Part shown: one piece after another, positions 45,816 to 53,007 of the stretch
Numbering within the stretch: position 1 is the stretch's first letter
How the letters are laid out: the number at the start of each line of letters is the position of its first letter
From: Dongshaea marina
GTDB lineage: Bacteria > Pseudomonadota > Gammaproteobacteria > Enterobacterales > Aeromonadaceae
DNA length: 64,000 bases
Direction: 5' to 3'
Assembly: GCF_003072645.1 (NCBI RefSeq)
Contig: NZ_CP028897.1
Coordinates: forward strand, 1,191,658-1,255,657
Position numbers and translations under genes: made by a program
The notes under the pieces: model-generated
What the model was told of the DNA's origin: nothing
Databases searched by the model: none
The model's input: only the letters and a program-made list of their open reading frames with translations

Positions 45816-46151
45816 ATGTCGTTAAACACCCAAGAATGTGAAGCTTGCAGAGTCGGGGCTCCCAAGGTGGATCGCAATGAACTCGATCAGTTCCTTCAGG
45901 AGTTGCCCGAGTGGAAGCTGGTGGTAAAAGAGGGGATAGAGCAGCTTGAGCGGGTTTATCGATTTAAGAATTTTCGCCAGGCCCTGGCCTTTACCAACAG
46001 GGTTGGCGAGATGGCCGAGCAGGAGGGGCATCACCCGGGCCTTTTGACCGAGTGGGGGAAGGTCACAGTAACCTGGTGGACCCACAGCATCCAGGGGCTG
46101 CATAAGAATGATTTTATCTGTGCGGCTAAGTGTGATCTGTTATTGGATTGA
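45816..46151 (+). CDS. phhB: Pterin-4a-carbinolamine dehydratase
   Basis: 111 aa. Regenerates the pterin cofactor used by PhhA. The family motif [28 protein letters not shown] contains the catalytic His residues and Trp. TAAGGAGATAAAA gives a strong ribosome-binding site. 92 bp of its 3' end (46045-46136) recur at 51023-51114 beyond an accessory island, so its present last codons (KCDLLLD) probably came with the inserted DNA. Confidence 0.95.
46045..46136 (+). repeat. Left copy of a 92-bp direct repeat (phhB 3' end)
   Basis: Identical to 51023-51114 at 91 of 92 positions, same orientation, 4978 bp apart. The two copies bound an AT-rich set of accessory genes. The position inside the 3' end of a housekeeping-type gene is typical of integration sites. 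Confidence 0.93.
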
Positions 46152-46163
46152 TGACTTCGGATG

Positions 46164-46193
46164 TGAGCCCACTTCGGATGAGTGTGGCTCACC
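46164..46193 (+). terminator. Hairpin downstream of phhB
   Basis: GTGAGCC-CACT pairs with AGTG-(T)-GGCTCAC around TCGGATG, 12 bp after the phhB stop. There is no T tract. From here to 46805 no gene is convincing; a 90-codon frame at 46356-46628 is Ser/Leu/Cys-rich and lacks a ribosome-binding site. Confidence 0.55.
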
Positions 46194-46805
46194 GATTTGT
46201 CTGGTTTTTATCCGGAGACAATAACCTGTCTTGTGGATGGATGCTCTTGCCCATCAAATGATTCAATTAAGCCAAATTATCTGGGCTAGATCATTTTTCG
46301 AACCATCGACACTCTCATATTTGGCTCTGTTTACGTTTCAGATTTGCTTCTGTAGTTGGCAAGTGTTTCAGCCCGCAAGCCTGCTCTACTCTTCTATTTG
46401 ACCTGCCTCTTCTCGCGACTAAGCTTTCTAATGGCTGCTCATCTTTGCTTTGCCAGTTTACCCCGCTCACTTCAGTGTTGCTTGAAATTAGCTCTAAAGA
46501 AACTTGAAATGAGCTTTGATAGTCTATACCATCAGTTTTCGAAAATTGATGAATCTCATGTTTTTGTCATGATCTGCTCCTGCCAAGGAGGGGATAGGAG
46601 ACGACGTAGCCCGGGTGGAACAAGATAGTTGTTAGGACATCAGTCTGGAAGAAGGGTAAGTATGGCAAGGTTACCAGCCCTTTAGCTTTGTTTAAATTTT
46701 CTTGTTGGTAGCCCAATAAGGTCGCTTTTTATGCGTGAAAGGTACTTGCAAGAATACCTAAATTGAACTTAAGTGAATTTGTAAAATTACACCTATAGAT
46801 AAAGG

Positions 46806-46991
46806 GTGAGGATGAAGATGAACAGCGTACCGAGTAAACAGCAAGAGCACTTTACTGAACACCCCGTTGTCATTGAGTTTATAAAAAGAATAGAGAAGGT
46901 CATGGATGAGGTTGTTCAGGGAAGGATGACGGTGAGTGAGGTGACTCACCGTTTTGAAACTATGAAAATGGATCTGTTCCAGCATACCTGA
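46806..46991 (+). CDS. Small protein of unknown function, 61 aa
   Basis: Not recognised. Mostly helical and charged (HPVVIEFIKRIEKVMDEVVQGRMTVSEVTHRFETMKMDLF). The start may be the GTG at 46806 or an ATG at 46812. It lies in the AT-rich island between the two phhB 3' copies. Its regular amphipathic pattern favours a real gene over chance, but support is modest. Confidence 0.4.
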   Translation: MRMKMNSVPSKQQEHFTEHPVVIEFIKRIEKVMDEVVQGRMTVSEVTHRFETMKMDLFQHT

Positions 46992-47122
46992 GACTTATAA
47001 TTTGCTTATCATTTATTGAACTAACATACGACTGTACTTTAGATTATATCAGGGTGGTTGATTAAGGAAATCTAATCAATATTTGATTGGATCTAATCGA
47101 TTTTTAATTCAGTGATTAAATA

Positions 47123-47350
47123 ATGAATTGGATTAAAGAAAAAGAGTTTGGATGCATTCGCATATCCGAATCAGGACTCGTTTATACAGATATACAAGAG
47201 AACTCCCCTGATATTATAGGGGATATTCATTATGTACAGGATCTAAATGTCTATTTGTATAAACCAAAATCAGACATTCGACTTGATGCACATGAACTCA
47301 AGTGTATTCATTTCATACTGTCTAACTTAAACCAAGAAGCTAATGGATAA
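47123..47350 (+). CDS. Small protein of unknown function, 75 aa
   Basis: Not recognised. It starts MNWIKEKEFGCIRISESGLVYT, is mixed alpha/beta in look, and has two Cys and no signal or membrane segment. It ends 11 bp before the SDR start, so the two may be cotranscribed. The DNA is very AT-rich. The ribosome-binding site is weak. Confidence 0.45.
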   Translation: MNWIKEKEFGCIRISESGLVYTDIQENSPDIIGDIHYVQDLNVYLYKPKSDIRLDAHELKCIHFILSNLNQEANG

Positions 47351-47361
47351 GGGAAATACCG

Positions 47362-48111
47362 ATGAGTGAATTTAAAGATAAGGTAGTTGTTATTACTGGT
47401 GGTTCAAGTGGTATCGGTCTGGAGACAGCGAAATTATTTCACAAAGAAGGTGCCCAGGTTGTAATCATGAGCAGAACAGCCGAAGCGTTAGATAAAGCTG
47501 CTGCTGAAATCGGCTCTAATGTCATGGCTTTGAAGGTTGATGTTGCCAGTGTTTACGATCTGGAGCAAGCAGCCGCAACCATTAAAGAGGTTTATGGTCG
47601 TGTTGATGTCCTGTTCTCAAGCGCGGGTATTGCCCCGATGCTACCGTTTGAAATGGTTTCAGAAGAAATATTTGATGCTGTAGTCAATGCAAACTTCAAA
47701 GGCGCGTTCTTTACAGTTCAAAAGATTTCACCGCTAATGCCAGAAGGATCTTCAATCATCCTTACCAGCTCAACGGTTGCGAGCACCGGGGTTCCTAACT
47801 TCTCTGTATACTCAGCTAGCAAAGCTGCCGTCCGCTCGCTTGGTAGAACTTTGACGAGTGATTTGGCATCTAAGAAGATCCGCGTTAATACTATTAGTCC
47901 CGGCCCAATTGAAACGCCAATGCTGGACAAAACAGGGTTAACCAAGGAGCAGATGAACGGCTTCAAAGAAATGGCGGTCACGCAAACCCCAGTAGGACGA
48001 TTTGGCTATCCGACCGACATTGCCGAGGCAGTCATGTTTTTTGCTTCTGAAAAGTCATCTTTCATAACTGGCGTAGAGTTGACCGTAGACGGCGGCAGAA
48101 CTCAAATTTAA
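47362..48111 (+). CDS. Short-chain dehydrogenase/reductase
   Basis: 249 aa classical SDR, cytosolic NAD(P)-dependent oxidoreductase. Cofactor motif TGGSSGIG (12-19), SSAG near 86-89 in place of NNAG, catalytic Ser near 136, Y150 and K154 in YSASK, and the C-terminal GVELTVDGGRTQ. The Arg at 38 after the second strand (MSRTA) suggests NADPH preference. Island cargo inside the phhB repeats, closed by its own terminator. Substrate unknown. Confidence 0.93.
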   Translation: MSEFKDKVVVITGGSSGIGLETAKLFHKEGAQVVIMSRTAEALDKAAAEIGSNVMALKVDVASVYDLEQAAATIKEVYGRVDVLFSSAGIAPMLPFEMVSEEIFDAVVNANFKGAFFTVQKISPLMPEGSSIILTSSTVASTGVPNFSVYSASKAAVRSLGRTLTSDLASKKIRVNTISPGPIETPMLDKTGLTKEQMNGFKEMAVTQTPVGRFGYPTDIAEAVMFFASEKSSFITGVELTVDGGRTQI

Positions 48112-48117
48112 CTATTT

Positions 48118-48143
48118 AGCCCCTTTTTATAAGGGGCTTTTTT
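48118..48143 (+). terminator. Rho-independent terminator after the SDR gene
   Basis: AGCCCCTT / AAGGGGCT stem with a short T-rich loop, followed by six T; 7 bp after the stop. Confidence 0.9.
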
Positions 48144-48153
48144 AGAGGTTTTT

Positions 48154-48657
48154 ATGAGAAAAATAGTGTTTTTTGCTGTTTGTGTTTTTGTGATTGCTGG
48201 GTTTTCATTTAATACGTTTGCGTCATCGAACAGCATTGTTTATGCTCGCTGCATTGACAAAGAGGGTCATTATATTTTCTGCCGTCAAGATAGTAGGACA
48301 AGTTATAGAAACATTCAACGCTTCATCATGCACGTCCACTGCCTTACTGGATTATGGAAAAAAGAGATAACGGTATCAATACCAGTTGGGGTTCAGAAAA
48401 CATACTCCAAGACAGGCGGGTTGAATCTATGTGATTCCATGAGATTTGATTACACGCATACAACATTTGATGATGCTAACGGGGAGCAATACGACACGGG
48501 AGCTAAAGATGATTATAGTTATGCTTACCATAATGTTCTGATGATGTGGGATGAACATGCGAGAGATGGTAAAGGATGTTGGAAGGATGCTAGCCATAAA
48601 GATAATGGTCATGTTTCTTTTACTGATAAATGTGTGACCGTATTAAATAAAGGTTAA
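48154..48657 (+). CDS. Secreted Cys-containing protein of unknown function, 167 aa
   Basis: Not recognised. The signal peptide is RKIVFFAVCVFVIAGFSFNTFA with cleavage before SSNS. The mature part (about 145 aa) has six Cys, suggesting disulfides in the periplasm or outside, and is rich in His, Asp and Tyr (DYTHTTFDDANGEQYD, AKDDYSYAYHN). AT-rich. Follows the SDR terminator directly, so it has its own or read-through transcription. Confidence 0.65.
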   Translation: MRKIVFFAVCVFVIAGFSFNTFASSNSIVYARCIDKEGHYIFCRQDSRTSYRNIQRFIMHVHCLTGLWKKEITVSIPVGVQKTYSKTGGLNLCDSMRFDYTHTTFDDANGEQYDTGAKDDYSYAYHNVLMMWDEHARDGKGCWKDASHKDNGHVSFTDKCVTVLNKG

Positions 48658-49026
48658 TTAAAATGGAGAGGATACTTGTAAGGAGGCTGGTATTCATATG
48701 AAAATAAATTCAAGTATTCGGTAAAGTAACAATAAAAGTTGGGACATTATGTAATCTTCCATTACCCATTGTAGCATCCAAATCTGAGATTGTCAGAGCG
48801 ATTAACTCAAGGGGAGAGCTCAAGTGGTGAGTGAAATAAGGACATGGGTGATGATTGATGTCCGTGCAACAGCAAAGTCTTACTATCTTACCTGAAGGCG
48901 TCATGCAGCAGAAGCGGAGAAGTTAGCTTGCCGCTAGCGATTAGTGTTGAAAAACTCCCCTATCAAGGCAAGCTCTTATAACAATCCCTGTAGTTAAGTG
49001 TTCAGGATGTAGCGAGTTCCTATTAG

Positions 49027-49124
49027 GATAATCTGTGAGTCATTTAGCCCGTTGGCGGCATGGATGCGGGCACCGAGCATACAGGATGTACTTGCTGTGT
49101 GGCGCATATGACTCATGGATTATT
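49027..49124 (+). repeat. 98-bp dispersed element with terminal inverted repeats, copy 2
   Basis: Matches the reverse complement of 4400-4497: GATAATCTGTGAGTCATTTAG at the left, the central CATGGATG, GAGCATACAGGATGTACTTGCTG, and CATGGATTAT at the right. The internal stem is less perfect than in copy 1. It lies in a gene-free stretch (48658-49473) inside the island; the rest of that stretch shows no gene. Confidence 0.8.
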
Positions 49125-49473
49125 AGAGCAAACTGATCACCTTTCTTTCATGATTGATAATACAGGATGATAGCGTCTCCTGTCTGGTTTGAGTCTGCTT
49201 TTAGAGCCTTAATCGTTCTGACTTTTTGCTTAGGACTGCTTCCTGACAGGTGCCTTGATGTATCCGGATGCTACACAGGGGTTCGTGAACGATTGAGATG
49301 GAGGATTGACATACTGCTTCACTATCATGAACTTCTACTTTAGTCTGTGAGGTTTTAGGACGGTGGATTATAATTCATCGTCAAATCCTACTTTAAAATA
49401 ACTTAAAATATGCAGTCTTTAGAGTGGGATTTACACCTTAGGTCAATAGAAAAACATAAAGTAGGAGTAGTAA

Positions 49474-50040
49474 GTGGATACTTTTTCTGACCGGTTGGCG
49501 GAAATGCTGGAGTTGCGGCACATGACACAGGCGGATCTCGCTAAAGCAGTCGGAGTGGGAACTGGGACTGTTTCGTATTGGATCAAAGGTGGGGCTAAAA
49601 AACCAGCTAAGTATCTACCTGCTATCTGTGCTGCCTTGCGTGTGACTGAGCTGTGGTTGGTTCATGGTGTGGGAGAGCCTGAAGGGGATGGAATCGAGCG
49701 AGTAGAGCAAGAGGTCCCTGTATCAGAGATAACGAATGATGGTTTTACAAGGCACGTTAGAATGCTTGATTACCAGAATTTGGAGCGGGATGGCGACTAT
49801 CAGGGGTATATGCTGGTTGACTCAGAGATCCTTCAGGTAGGGTCGGTGATCATTGTTGACAGAAGGAAGACGGGGTCGGGGCTATACCTGTGTTGCAACG
49901 GCAAGGAAGTCTTTTTATCCCAACGAAAAGATAAGATCACGAGGGCTAGCTGGCATCATATTACAGATCAAAAAGTAAACCTGAACAATCTTGAGATCCT
50001 TGGTTACGTTTGCGGGCTCATTAACAATAGAGAATGGTAA
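49474..50040 (+). CDS. Phage-type XRE/CI-like repressor
   Basis: 188 aa. The N-terminal helix-turn-helix is LAEMLELRHMTQADLAKAVGVGTGTVSYWIKGG (near 8-40). The C-terminal part (about 85-188) looks like the LexA/CI oligomerisation region (GYMLVDSEILQVGSVIIVDRR), but a Ser-Lys protease pair is not clear. GTG start with AGGAG at good spacing. It lies in the island and precedes the VUT transporter by 7 bp, so the two are probably cotranscribed. Confidence 0.82.
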   Translation: MDTFSDRLAEMLELRHMTQADLAKAVGVGTGTVSYWIKGGAKKPAKYLPAICAALRVTELWLVHGVGEPEGDGIERVEQEVPVSEITNDGFTRHVRMLDYQNLERDGDYQGYMLVDSEILQVGSVIIVDRRKTGSGLYLCCNGKEVFLSQRKDKITRASWHHITDQKVNLNNLEILGYVCGLINNREW

Positions 50041-50047
50041 ATGCGGT

Positions 50048-50899
50048 ATGCTGGAAATTATTTCAATTAAAAATGGAATAGTTCGCTGTAAGACCCAAAG
50101 TGGCAGGGAAGTTTCTTATAGAGATGTCGATGTTGTGAACAGCGGAGATATGATTTCATATTTCAATGAAGCAGACATCGAGCGGATCACTCGTTCGAGT
50201 AAGCAAACAGGCCTTGTGCTCAGAAAAGCAAATGGAAAGGCTGTCAGTTGTTACCAGTCAGATAATGTACAGCTACTCAGTGGGTTGAGTATCGCGTTCT
50301 CATTTTTTTCTCTGATTAGTGTGCTGGTCTCGTCCATGACCTCGATTACCTTGTTTGGGATCCACTTCCCTGCAGGGATCTTTATTTATCCGATCGGACT
50401 GATGCTGCTGGATGTGATTAATGAGAGTTTTGGAGCCGAACATTCAAGAAAGACGATTTACATCTCAACAGGAATCATCCTGGGAGCGGCTATTGTTATT
50501 GCTTGGCTTGTGAGCATGCCAAGGGAGTATATGAGTGACTACCAGGTGATTCAGGAAGTCTTCTCCAAGTCAGTTGGTTATCTGCTTGTGTTTTCGATCG
50601 CCTTTTTGATTTCTAACTACCTGAATGCGCTGGTATTTACTAAGCTCAAGTCGCTTTTTCTGGGCCGTTTTCTATGGCTTCGCTGTGTTCTGGCGGCGCT
50701 GGCCTGTCAGCTGATTATTTCATTATCGATAACGGTGCATCACTGGCTTGATCATGGGATCACGTATCGTTTCCTGTTGATCGTCTCGACTATGTATCTG
50801 TTAAAAATCGCTTTAGTAGCCCTGTTTTCACCCTGTACTTACCTGTTTGTTTGGTATTCGAAGGCTAAATTCAGGCAGGGAAACCCGATCCCCTCATAG
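50048..50899 (+). CDS. VUT/YhhQ-family transporter (queuosine-precursor type) with N-terminal extension
   Basis: 283 aa. The family signature PAGIFIYPIGLMLLDVINESFGAEHSRKTIY is at about 110-145, and about six membrane segments follow from 75 on. YhhQ-type proteins import queuosine precursors (preQ0/preQ1). Residues 1-75 form an extra soluble domain (LEIISIKNGIVRCKTQSGREVSYRDV...) not usual in YhhQ. The chosen ATG at 50048 follows the repressor stop; an earlier in-frame start overlaps that gene. Confidence 0.85.
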   Translation: MLEIISIKNGIVRCKTQSGREVSYRDVDVVNSGDMISYFNEADIERITRSSKQTGLVLRKANGKAVSCYQSDNVQLLSGLSIAFSFFSLISVLVSSMTSITLFGIHFPAGIFIYPIGLMLLDVINESFGAEHSRKTIYISTGIILGAAIVIAWLVSMPREYMSDYQVIQEVFSKSVGYLLVFSIAFLISNYLNALVFTKLKSLFLGRFLWLRCVLAALACQLIISLSITVHHWLDHGITYRFLLIVSTMYLLKIALVALFSPCTYLFVWYSKAKFRQGNPIPS

Positions 50900-51022
50900 A
50901 AGATTTCCGGTCACAAGGATGTGGCTGTTCGTGTTTTGGATACAGGACAAAGTGCATCAATGAGCGCTGTCTCGACTCCTGAACGTGGCATCTTTTGGTG
51001 TGATCCACCCAGGTTAGTGAGA

Positions 51023-51129
51023 TGACCGAGTGGGGGAAGGTCACAGTAACCTGGTGGACCCACAGCATCCAGGGGCTGCATAAGAATGATTTTATCTGTG
51101 CGGTTAAGTGTGATCACCTGTTTGATTAG
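51023..51129 (+). pseudogene. Duplicated 3'-end fragment of phhB
   Basis: 92 bp match phhB 3' sequence at 91 of 92 positions, and the frame continues to a good ending (KCDHLFD, stop at 51127-51129). It is probably the original phhB terminus left at the far end of an insertion. There is no promoter or start of its own. Confidence 0.9.
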
Positions 51130-51199
51130 TCGCTGAGGGCTGTGAGTTGACTCTTTAAAGGAGGGCTCACAGCTCTATGGCCTGGCAGTGTAGCTCAGA

Positions 51200-51916
51200 T
51201 TACTGAGAGCGTTTTAGTAGCTCTGGCAGGGTTTGCTGCAGCTCCTGGCAGGCACTAAGGTAGTGGGCTTTGAGCAGGCTTTCTGCTCTGTCTGGATCGC
51301 GTGCCAGCAGAGCATCCACCAGAGCGACATGCTCTTTTTGGTTCGCCTCAAAGACTGTGCTGCTTGCCATATTATGTTTAAGCCATAAATTTCGGTAGCG
51401 CGACGCTTTCTCATAGAGCTCCTGGTGGATGCGTAATAATGTTGGAGAAGCGCAGCCCCGAACAATCGCGTCATGAAACTCGTGATGGATCAGCTCCCAG
51501 CTCTCTATTTCCTGCTGACTTTTGCTTTGTAGATCACCGGCCTTTTTTAACCGGTGAGCCGCAGCCAGAATACCTGCCTCCCAGATATCATCACCCCGTT
51601 CGATCGCCTTACGTACGCATAGGCCTACTATATCGGCACGGATCTCATAGATATCTAGCATCTCTTTAAGACCGATGGGAGTGACCCTGAATCCCCGCTG
51701 ATTTTCGACCTCGACAAGCTGCTCAGTGATTAATTGCGATAGTGCTTCGCGTAAAGGTGTGACACCTGCCTGGTAGCGTTCTTTAAGGCGAGCCATTTTA
51801 AGCTTTTCGCCGGGGGCGAAGTAGCCACTCAAAATATCTTTTTTGAGAAGCTTTAGGGCCTGACTCCCTGAGTTTTCGCTGGTGATAACCGATTGGAGTT
51901 GGGGCGTTTGCGTCAT
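51200..51916 (-). CDS. glaR: GntR/FCD-family repressor of glutarate genes
   Basis: 238 aa. The winged helix-turn-helix has LKMARLKERYQAGVTPLREALSQLI, followed by an FCD ligand domain with metal-site His/Asp residues (ELIHHEFHDAIVRGC). It is divergent from glaH and lhgD; in E. coli the homologue CsiR/GlaR represses those genes and responds to glutarate. The assignment rests on context and subfamily. Confidence 0.85.
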   Translation of the reverse strand: MTQTPQLQSVITSENSGSQALKLLKKDILSGYFAPGEKLKMARLKERYQAGVTPLREALSQLITEQLVEVENQRGFRVTPIGLKEMLDIYEIRADIVGLCVRKAIERGDDIWEAGILAAAHRLKKAGDLQSKSQQEIESWELIHHEFHDAIVRGCASPTLLRIHQELYEKASRYRNLWLKHNMASSTVFEANQKEHVALVDALLARDPDRAESLLKAHYLSACQELQQTLPELLKRSQ

Positions 51917-52063: not shown

Positions 52064-53007
52064 ATGGATACTCTGGGTTCACCTTGTAAGCAGCTTGATG
52101 CACAAGGGTTTAAGGTTTCGACTTTTACAGATAATGAACGGTTGCAGGTCATCACTCTCAGTCACGACCTGGTTCAGAAGTTTCGTCAGGAGTGCCTGCA
52201 GTGGCCTGTCCAGGCGCTGGAATACAAGCCATTTTTACGTTTTGTCCTGGCTGAGCGGTTGGATGCTTTATCGAATTACGGCTTACGACTTACTTTGAGG
52301 GGGATCCTGGGTAGGCGTGAGCAGGGGGCTTTTCTGTTGCAGGTTGAAGAGAGTCCGTTGGAGTCTTTTGAAGGGCAAACCGAGTTTTATATCCAGCTTT
52401 CTACGGCCATCTCCCATCTTATCGGAATGCCAAATTTTGATGCCATGTATGGTAAATATTATGCGCGCTTTACGGTAAAAAACAGTGATGATAGTGATAG
52501 TTACCTGTGTCAGGCCCACCGCCCCTAGAGCTGCATAACGATGGGACCTATGTGGATGAGCGGACTGATTTTGTACTCATGATGAAGCTGGCAGAGGAAA
52601 ATATGCTGGGGGGCGATTCCCGATTACTTCATCTGGATGACTGGCAGGAGCTGGAGAGGTTTTATCATCACCCCCTGGCGAAACAGGCGATTCCATGGGG
52701 AGCTCCTCCCAGTAAAAATGTAACCTGTAAGGTTGAGCATTCGGTTTTTTTTGAAGAGGACTGCCAGGGCAGGCCCCATATGTTGTATATCGATCAATTC
52801 GCGGAGCCGCAGAATTTAGCACAAGGCTTGTATCTGCACCAGCTGGGAGAGTCACTGGAGAATGATCCATATGTCTTTAATGTTCAGGTGCCGGTTGGAT
52901 CTATGCTCGTGGTGCAGAATCACTGCTGGTTGCATGGTCGGGATAAGTTTATCGAAAGCCCTGGTCTACGCCGTGAGCTGTTACGGCAACGCGGACATTT
53001 TTGCTAA
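52064..53007 (+). CDS. glaH: Glutarate 2-hydroxylase, frameshifted
   Basis: About 314 aa with one C added to the run at 52522-52525, restoring AHRPLELHNDGTYVDE. Fe(II)/2-oxoglutarate enzyme (CsiD/GlaH) that turns glutarate into L-2-hydroxyglutarate. The iron triad is H and D of HNDGTY plus the distal His of LHGRDKF. Followed by lhgD, whose enzyme uses its product. Confidence 0.93.

Follow-up and report, generated by a model that had tools for sequence, protein, structure and literature searches.

The E. coli membrane protein YhhQ (COG1738/TIGR00697) has been shown to transport the queuosine (Q) precursor preQ0; its C-terminus is cytoplasmic and six helices have been proposed (PMC5372724). The regulators named for genes of Q-precursor transporters are preQ1 riboswitches and PurR (PMC5372724). 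On F-like plasmids, non-homologous regulators replace traJ in the regulatory interval (PMC5102898).

Here we describe a two-gene locus that combines parts of such systems. It lies in a stretch of 64,000 nucleotides from Dongshaea marina (hereafter the window), where the gene of a CI-type repressor is followed by that of a membrane protein of the VUT family. The VUT protein resembles YhhQ in its Vut_1 and TIGR00697 matches, both above the cut-off, and in its predicted six-helix core. Unlike YhhQ, it has some 70 extra N-terminal residues and a paired repressor, lacks an Asp and an Asn of the family and is distant in the tree. It also resembles the ECF S-components RibU, BioY and ThiT in predicted core fold, but shares only 5-15% sequence identity with them and has an extra, putatively cytoplasmic domain. 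In the pair loci that we read, genes for an ECF ATPase or T-component were not seen.

The repressor is like phage 186 CI (2fjr) in joining an HTH to a non-cleavable S24-like C-domain fold. In contrast to 186 CI, it has no surrounding phage genes and is joined to a VUT gene in nearly all relatives. With the S24 peptidase repressors LexA and lambda CI it has the domain order and the C-domain fold in common, whereas the catalytic Ser and Lys positions are not retained. Serratia F-type plasmids carry such a pair in the regulatory interval before traY/traA, the interval for which traJ replacements are reported (PMC5102898). The pair differs from traJ-type and alternative regulators in being a CI-type repressor with a membrane partner, and PMC5102898 mentions neither VUT nor Serratia.

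The observation made in an earlier note on this DNA is confirmed and its interpretation partly supported. The strongest pattern is invisible from the window: pairs of this kind are repeatedly placed at, and exchanged in, conjugation control regions.

A repressor gene is joined to a VUT gene

A CI-like repressor followed 7 bp later by a VUT gene had been described, and the coordinates, strand, spacing, start codons and gene identities all proved correct. According to the ORF list and the sequence, the last base of the repressor stop codon is 50040 and VUT starts with the ATG at 50048. The repressor starts with GTG, and GGAG is found a few bases 5' of it. The features are as follows.

49359 to 49382, no strand: 24-bp imperfect dyad with TATAAT at its centre, candidate operator (dyad scan and sequence)
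49474 to 50040, + strand: CI/186-type repressor, 188 aa (HTH_3 36.6 bits, cut-off 23; structural model)
50048 to 50899, + strand: N-extended VUT/COG1738-type membrane protein, 283 aa (PF02592, Vut_1, 79.6 bits, cut-off 27.2; TIGR00697 62 bits)
50908 to 50927, + strand: terminator-like stem-loop 3' of the VUT gene (pattern scan only)

As a hairpin the candidate operator is weak (z -1.6) and it is not common to the relatives; a dyad comparison of the pair loci found no operator or dyad that they share. There was no Rfam match in 48600-51200, hence no riboswitch seen there, and neither a Q gene beside the window pair nor a preQ1 riboswitch was found among the window ORFs and in the Rfam scan.

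The pair lies in an AT-rich island

The proposed location in a putative mobile island is borne out by low GC and by 105-nt direct repeats at the borders.

46045 to 46149, + strand: left border of the island, formed by one copy of the phhB 3' end (105-nt direct repeat, the two copies 94% identical)
46150 to 51022, no strand: AT-rich island between the phhB repeats, ~5 kb (GC 37-45% compared to 47-56% in the flanks)
48154 to 48657, + strand: secreted Cys/Trp protein, possible cargo (aligned with seven proteins of locus L011; no Pfam match)
51023 to 51127, + strand: right border of the island, formed by the other copy of the phhB 3' end (105-nt direct repeat)

The identity of the two copies rises to 99% over the first 93 nt, and they are the only copies in the genome. 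GC reaches ~50-56% in the left flank and 47-50% in the right. Flanking repeats and foreign composition, both features of prophages or integrative elements, are found together. The scanned ORFs of 46.0-51.1 kb, between the repeats, include no integrase or phage structural gene, and we therefore speak of an island or remnant, a mobile element not being demonstrated.

The secreted Cys/Trp proteins form a family of ~155 aa, with one member beside the window pair and seven arrayed (L011 11033-15409) beside a second, damaged pair of the same clade elsewhere in the genome. No direct repeats resembling attachment sites surround this second pair. The family has no match in Pfam or on plasmids. To the right of the island, at window 52064-53007, two overlapping frames (154 and 166 aa) make up the gene between csiR and an FAD oxidoreductase gene; judged by its neighbours, this split gene is csiD/glaH-like.

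The repressor lacks the residues for cleavage

Both domains of the repressor have counterparts among phage repressors.

49495 to 49659, + strand: HTH DNA-binding domain, residues 8-62 (Pfam HTH_3; Z 12.4 to P22 C2)
49696 to 50034, + strand: S24/186-CI-like C-terminal domain, residues 75-187, catalytic Ser and Lys absent (2fjr/2fkd match; alignments)

The N-domain of the model is like that of the 434 and P22 repressors. The C-domain matches phage 186 CI (2fjr/2fkd) with Z 9.9 and rmsd 3.4 over ~105 residues. On our reading of the alignments, the S24 catalytic Ser-Lys pair is not at the expected positions. Since the C-domain is without cleavage residues, release would be likelier through binding of a ligand or partner than through RecA-driven cleavage.

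The VUT core is of the Q-precursor transporter type but has lost conserved residues

The VUT protein was correctly taken to be of the queuosine-precursor-transporter type: the NCBIfam model TIGR00697 ('queuosine precursor transporter') is matched with 62 bits against a cut-off of 50.95. Foldseek alone gave no match with E < 0.001 for VUT, whereas a comparison of the predicted core with RibU (5kbw) gave Z 14.7 and rmsd 3.3 over 168 residues.

50255 to 50881, + strand: membrane core, residues 70-278, ECF S-component fold (RibU 5kbw match)

In the tree, the window VUT falls into a monophyletic clade A (support 0.894), which groups with clade C (0.905), at a great distance from both clade B and YhhQ. 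At window residue 224, clade A has Tyr, Ile or other residues, compared to Asp in 67% of the other VUTs and in all of clade B. At residue 92, it has Ile or Val in place of the Asn kept by most other VUTs. P115, D122, R212 and K253 are retained. The loss of Asp224 and Asn92, whose role in transport is putative, is the main ground for doubt about the substrate of clade A, and a Q role for the window VUT is putative.

A subclade without the conserved Asp and with no Q gene alongside could thus have been repurposed. In that case the clade A VUT would no longer be a transporter but a membrane sensor or an exclusion/immunity protein matched to its repressor, and the pair would be exchanged like phage immunity regions. 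Besides the loss of the two residues, the additional cytoplasmic domain, the joint exchange of repressor and VUT and the several VUT types found in the same Serratia interval (see below) are in keeping with this. Nevertheless, we consider such a change of function quite unlikely, as four conserved residues (Asp122, Arg212, Lys253 and Pro115) are retained and the exchange partner is a member of the Q-linked clade B. In addition, no known defence or exclusion family matches VUT.

For the last reason, a known defence system was discarded as an explanation; PADLOC gave no match for VUT and only HTH-level matches for the repressor. A phage gene was likewise rejected: the VUT matches in phages are only distant, none is confirmed in viral contigs, and the pair is plasmid-borne.

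An unnamed domain precedes the membrane core

The N-terminal extension, put by the earlier note at about 75 residues, comprises ~70 residues before the first membrane helix.

50048 to 50206, + strand: unnamed N-terminal domain, residues 1-53, predicted cytoplasmic (model; conserved in relatives; related upstream genes elsewhere)

In the AlphaFold model of VUT (mean pLDDT 75), residues 3-53 form a beta-beta-beta-helix unit (local pLDDT ~66-75) and residues 55-70 a low-confidence linker, and the first membrane helix begins at residue 70. E. coli YhhQ (221 aa) is without such a unit. A mis-called start is ruled out, because the extension is conserved in the relatives and forms a structural unit of its own in the model; it is a genuine domain. 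Given the cytoplasmic C-terminus and the six helices proposed for YhhQ, the N-domain should be cytoplasmic as well.

The alignment of ten relatives reveals a common pattern, with some variation, that ends in F-x3-D-(R/K)-x2-I. Ahead of the VUT core, clade C (an array in the same genome, proteins of ~530 aa) and the queF/queC-linked clade B have a similar pattern. Profile comparisons place the domains in the same register (A-C, p value = 2.8e-6; A-B, 5e-4; B-C, 7e-4). We also ran a model of the N-domain against the 989 non-VUT ORFs of evenly sampled gammaproteobacterial VUT loci. Seven of the eight best matches lie immediately 5' of a VUT gene in the same orientation (p value = 7.5e-7), only two to four of these matches being individually strong. 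Aligned together, the upstream proteins apparently contain two copies of the domain each (profile comparison, p value = 3.1e-6). The VUT N-domain has no Pfam match and the upstream proteins have no convincing one. An unnamed domain outside Pfam thus exists in two settings, as the N-terminal part of VUT proteins and, in a related version, encoded by a gene of its own ahead of VUT.

Several Gammaproteobacteria of the class sample (G356, G378 and G125) have 6-10 VUT copies, some with an N-domain-like gene directly upstream.

Repressor and VUT form a conserved but rare unit

Repressor and VUT are a conserved two-gene unit. Relatives are found on plasmids of Serratia, Vibrio, Legionella/Fluoribacter, Cedecea and Arsenophonus and on chromosomes of Vibrio, Moritella and Sodalis. 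Whether the two genes are always joined had been raised: a CI-type gene lies directly upstream of VUT in nearly all relatives, mostly overlapping the VUT start, but there are several exceptions. In Moritella (L036) a related repressor is found ~2 kb downstream of VUT, in one Serratia (L031) the repressor frame is broken, in Burkholderia (L220) and another Serratia (L225) the HTH gene is on the opposite strand, and Spartinivicinus (L219) has no adjacent HTH gene.

In an even sample of the class, an HTH gene was seen tightly upstream of only 5 of 109 VUT genes, four of the five also with an S24-like domain. N-extended clade A pairs have a sparse, scattered distribution: apart from D. marina itself, none was found in 369 gammaproteobacterial genomes, compared to 4 of 197 Vibrionaceae genomes and 2 of 296 in a third sample.

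Clade B pairs have the same layout and the same type of extension, and either share an operon with queF or lie next to queC; the D. marina genome has one such pair. The suggested co-occurrence with queuosine genes therefore holds for this sister clade, and that with dpd genes does not: dpd is annotated near none of the pairs that we read.

A class I SAM-dependent methyltransferase-type gene is found near the pair in unrelated contexts (L030 6828-7625, L035 6653-7441, L036 6877-7680, L094 6326-7165 and L096 6389-7231).

Pairs are placed at transfer regions and exchanged between plasmids

On eight plasmid backbones, the pair and the genes that open the transfer region are oriented divergently. 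These are Serratia pE13, a Serratia IncI1/F-type backbone, V. parahaemolyticus pVPSD2016-4, V. owensii/ED002, Serratia JSRIV006, Fluoribacter pLD-TEX-KL, L. geestiana and Arsenophonus paNv_CAN7. The two plasmids that were read whole have seven and six divergent gaps, so that chance placement would be ~1/6 each under this crude null. Pairs away from transfer genes are those of Cedecea (L100) and S. symbiotica (L095), the chromosomal pairs of Vibrio and the window pair.

Two Vibrio plasmids with flanks 98% and 93% identical differ by a block of ~1.65 kb that consists of just the pair, a clade A pair in one plasmid and a clade B pair in the other. This exchange suggests that clades A and B, the latter being the clade tied to queF/queC, may have equivalent roles. 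That both genes are exchanged jointly is also the best argument for repressor and VUT being a matched pair. Similarly, in Serratia plasmids the interval from the transglycosylase gene to traA has flanks 96.7% and 93.8% identical and differs in content. A clade A pair accompanies traY in one version, and a clade B pair plus queC accompanies traM in another; yet another version has a third VUT type together with an HTH gene. We found no paper linking COG1738, VUT or queuosine to conjugation or plasmids, an absence that is not proof.

These placements bear on the simplest use of an importer, which is nutrient salvage. The pair would then be cargo, an autoregulated preQ0/preQ1 importer that aids queuosine synthesis of the host, and its proximity to transfer genes would reflect a tolerant insertion spot. 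The queF and queC partners of some pairs, the TIGR00697 match together with the shown preQ0 transport by YhhQ (PMC5372724) and the chromosomal pairs without transfer genes would fit such cargo. We regard it as possible, on the unlikely side, because on eight backbones the pair points away from where the transfer region starts; moreover, the hosts examined already have other VUT genes, and clade A is without residues retained by the transporter family.

A proposed cassette controlling mobile-element genes

The reading that we tentatively prefer, at somewhat less than even confidence, is that the pair is a cognate, exchangeable cassette: a regulator and a 7-deazaguanine-handling membrane protein that would together control genes of mobile elements, with substrate, ligand and targets being putative. 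The repressor would probably repress its own promoter and, on plasmids, also the divergent transfer operon, and would be released by a ligand or partner rather than by cleavage. VUT would most likely bind or import a 7-deazaguanine (preQ0/preQ1-like) compound and pass the status of this compound to the repressor, via the imported ligand or via the N-terminal domain.

The conserved pair, with genes that overlap in relatives and a divergent position at the transfer start on eight backbones, argues for the cassette, as do the swap of clade A and B pairs in Vibrio plasmids and the queF/queC links of clade B. The TIGR00697 match, the S-component fold, the match of the C-domain to 186 CI and the N-domain in clades A, B and C point the same way. 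Against it stand the absence of Asp224 and Asn92 from clade A, the lack of an adjacent Q gene and of a common operator, the window and chromosomal Vibrio pairs, which are not beside transfer genes, and the lack of a paper on a link to conjugation.

A more specific and rather doubtful form of the cassette is that, in several bacterial orders, conjugative elements detect a queuosine precursor through a membrane S-component, whose new cytoplasmic domain would signal to a cognate CI-type repressor of transfer genes. This would amount to a Q-responsive protein switch for horizontal gene transfer, exchanged between elements like a phage immunity region. If true, a tRNA-modification nutrient would be tied to plasmid spread through a travelling CI-type repressor and a Q-precursor-type membrane protein. 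Our results suggest a variation on known parts, with an unusual and testable link to the control of conjugation.

Other VUT and Q genes in the D. marina genome

With 11 VUT matches, the D. marina genome has among the highest counts in the sample. Besides the window pair, the damaged second pair and the clade C arrays, they comprise an HTH-VUT-QueF operon, one plain VUT and a VUT gene that shares one base with the S24-like gene upstream of it and lies ~2.7 kb from queC. One queC and two queF copies are present.

The earlier note had also suggested that imported preQ0/preQ1 could serve 7-deazaguanine modification of DNA in the element, in the manner of dpd systems. Apart from the known involvement of preQ0 in DNA modification in general (PMC6884629), nothing favours this, and we hold it to be very improbable: the TGT family has one locus in the whole genome, which is tgt itself in two overlapping frames, with no second family member that would correspond to DpdA, and a dpd gene is annotated near none of the pairs examined.

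The tgt locus (L101 1471-2612; C1:~3416579-3417657) is a pseudogene or an assembly error, given its two overlapping frames. Clade C is arrayed at two places (L009 4708-13755 and L010 4943-12282; C1:~628700-637800 and ~4440900-4448300), where the proteins reach ~530 aa and combine the same N-domain with a second membrane half. These arrays have GGDEF/EAL-type neighbours or fusions and insertion sequences.
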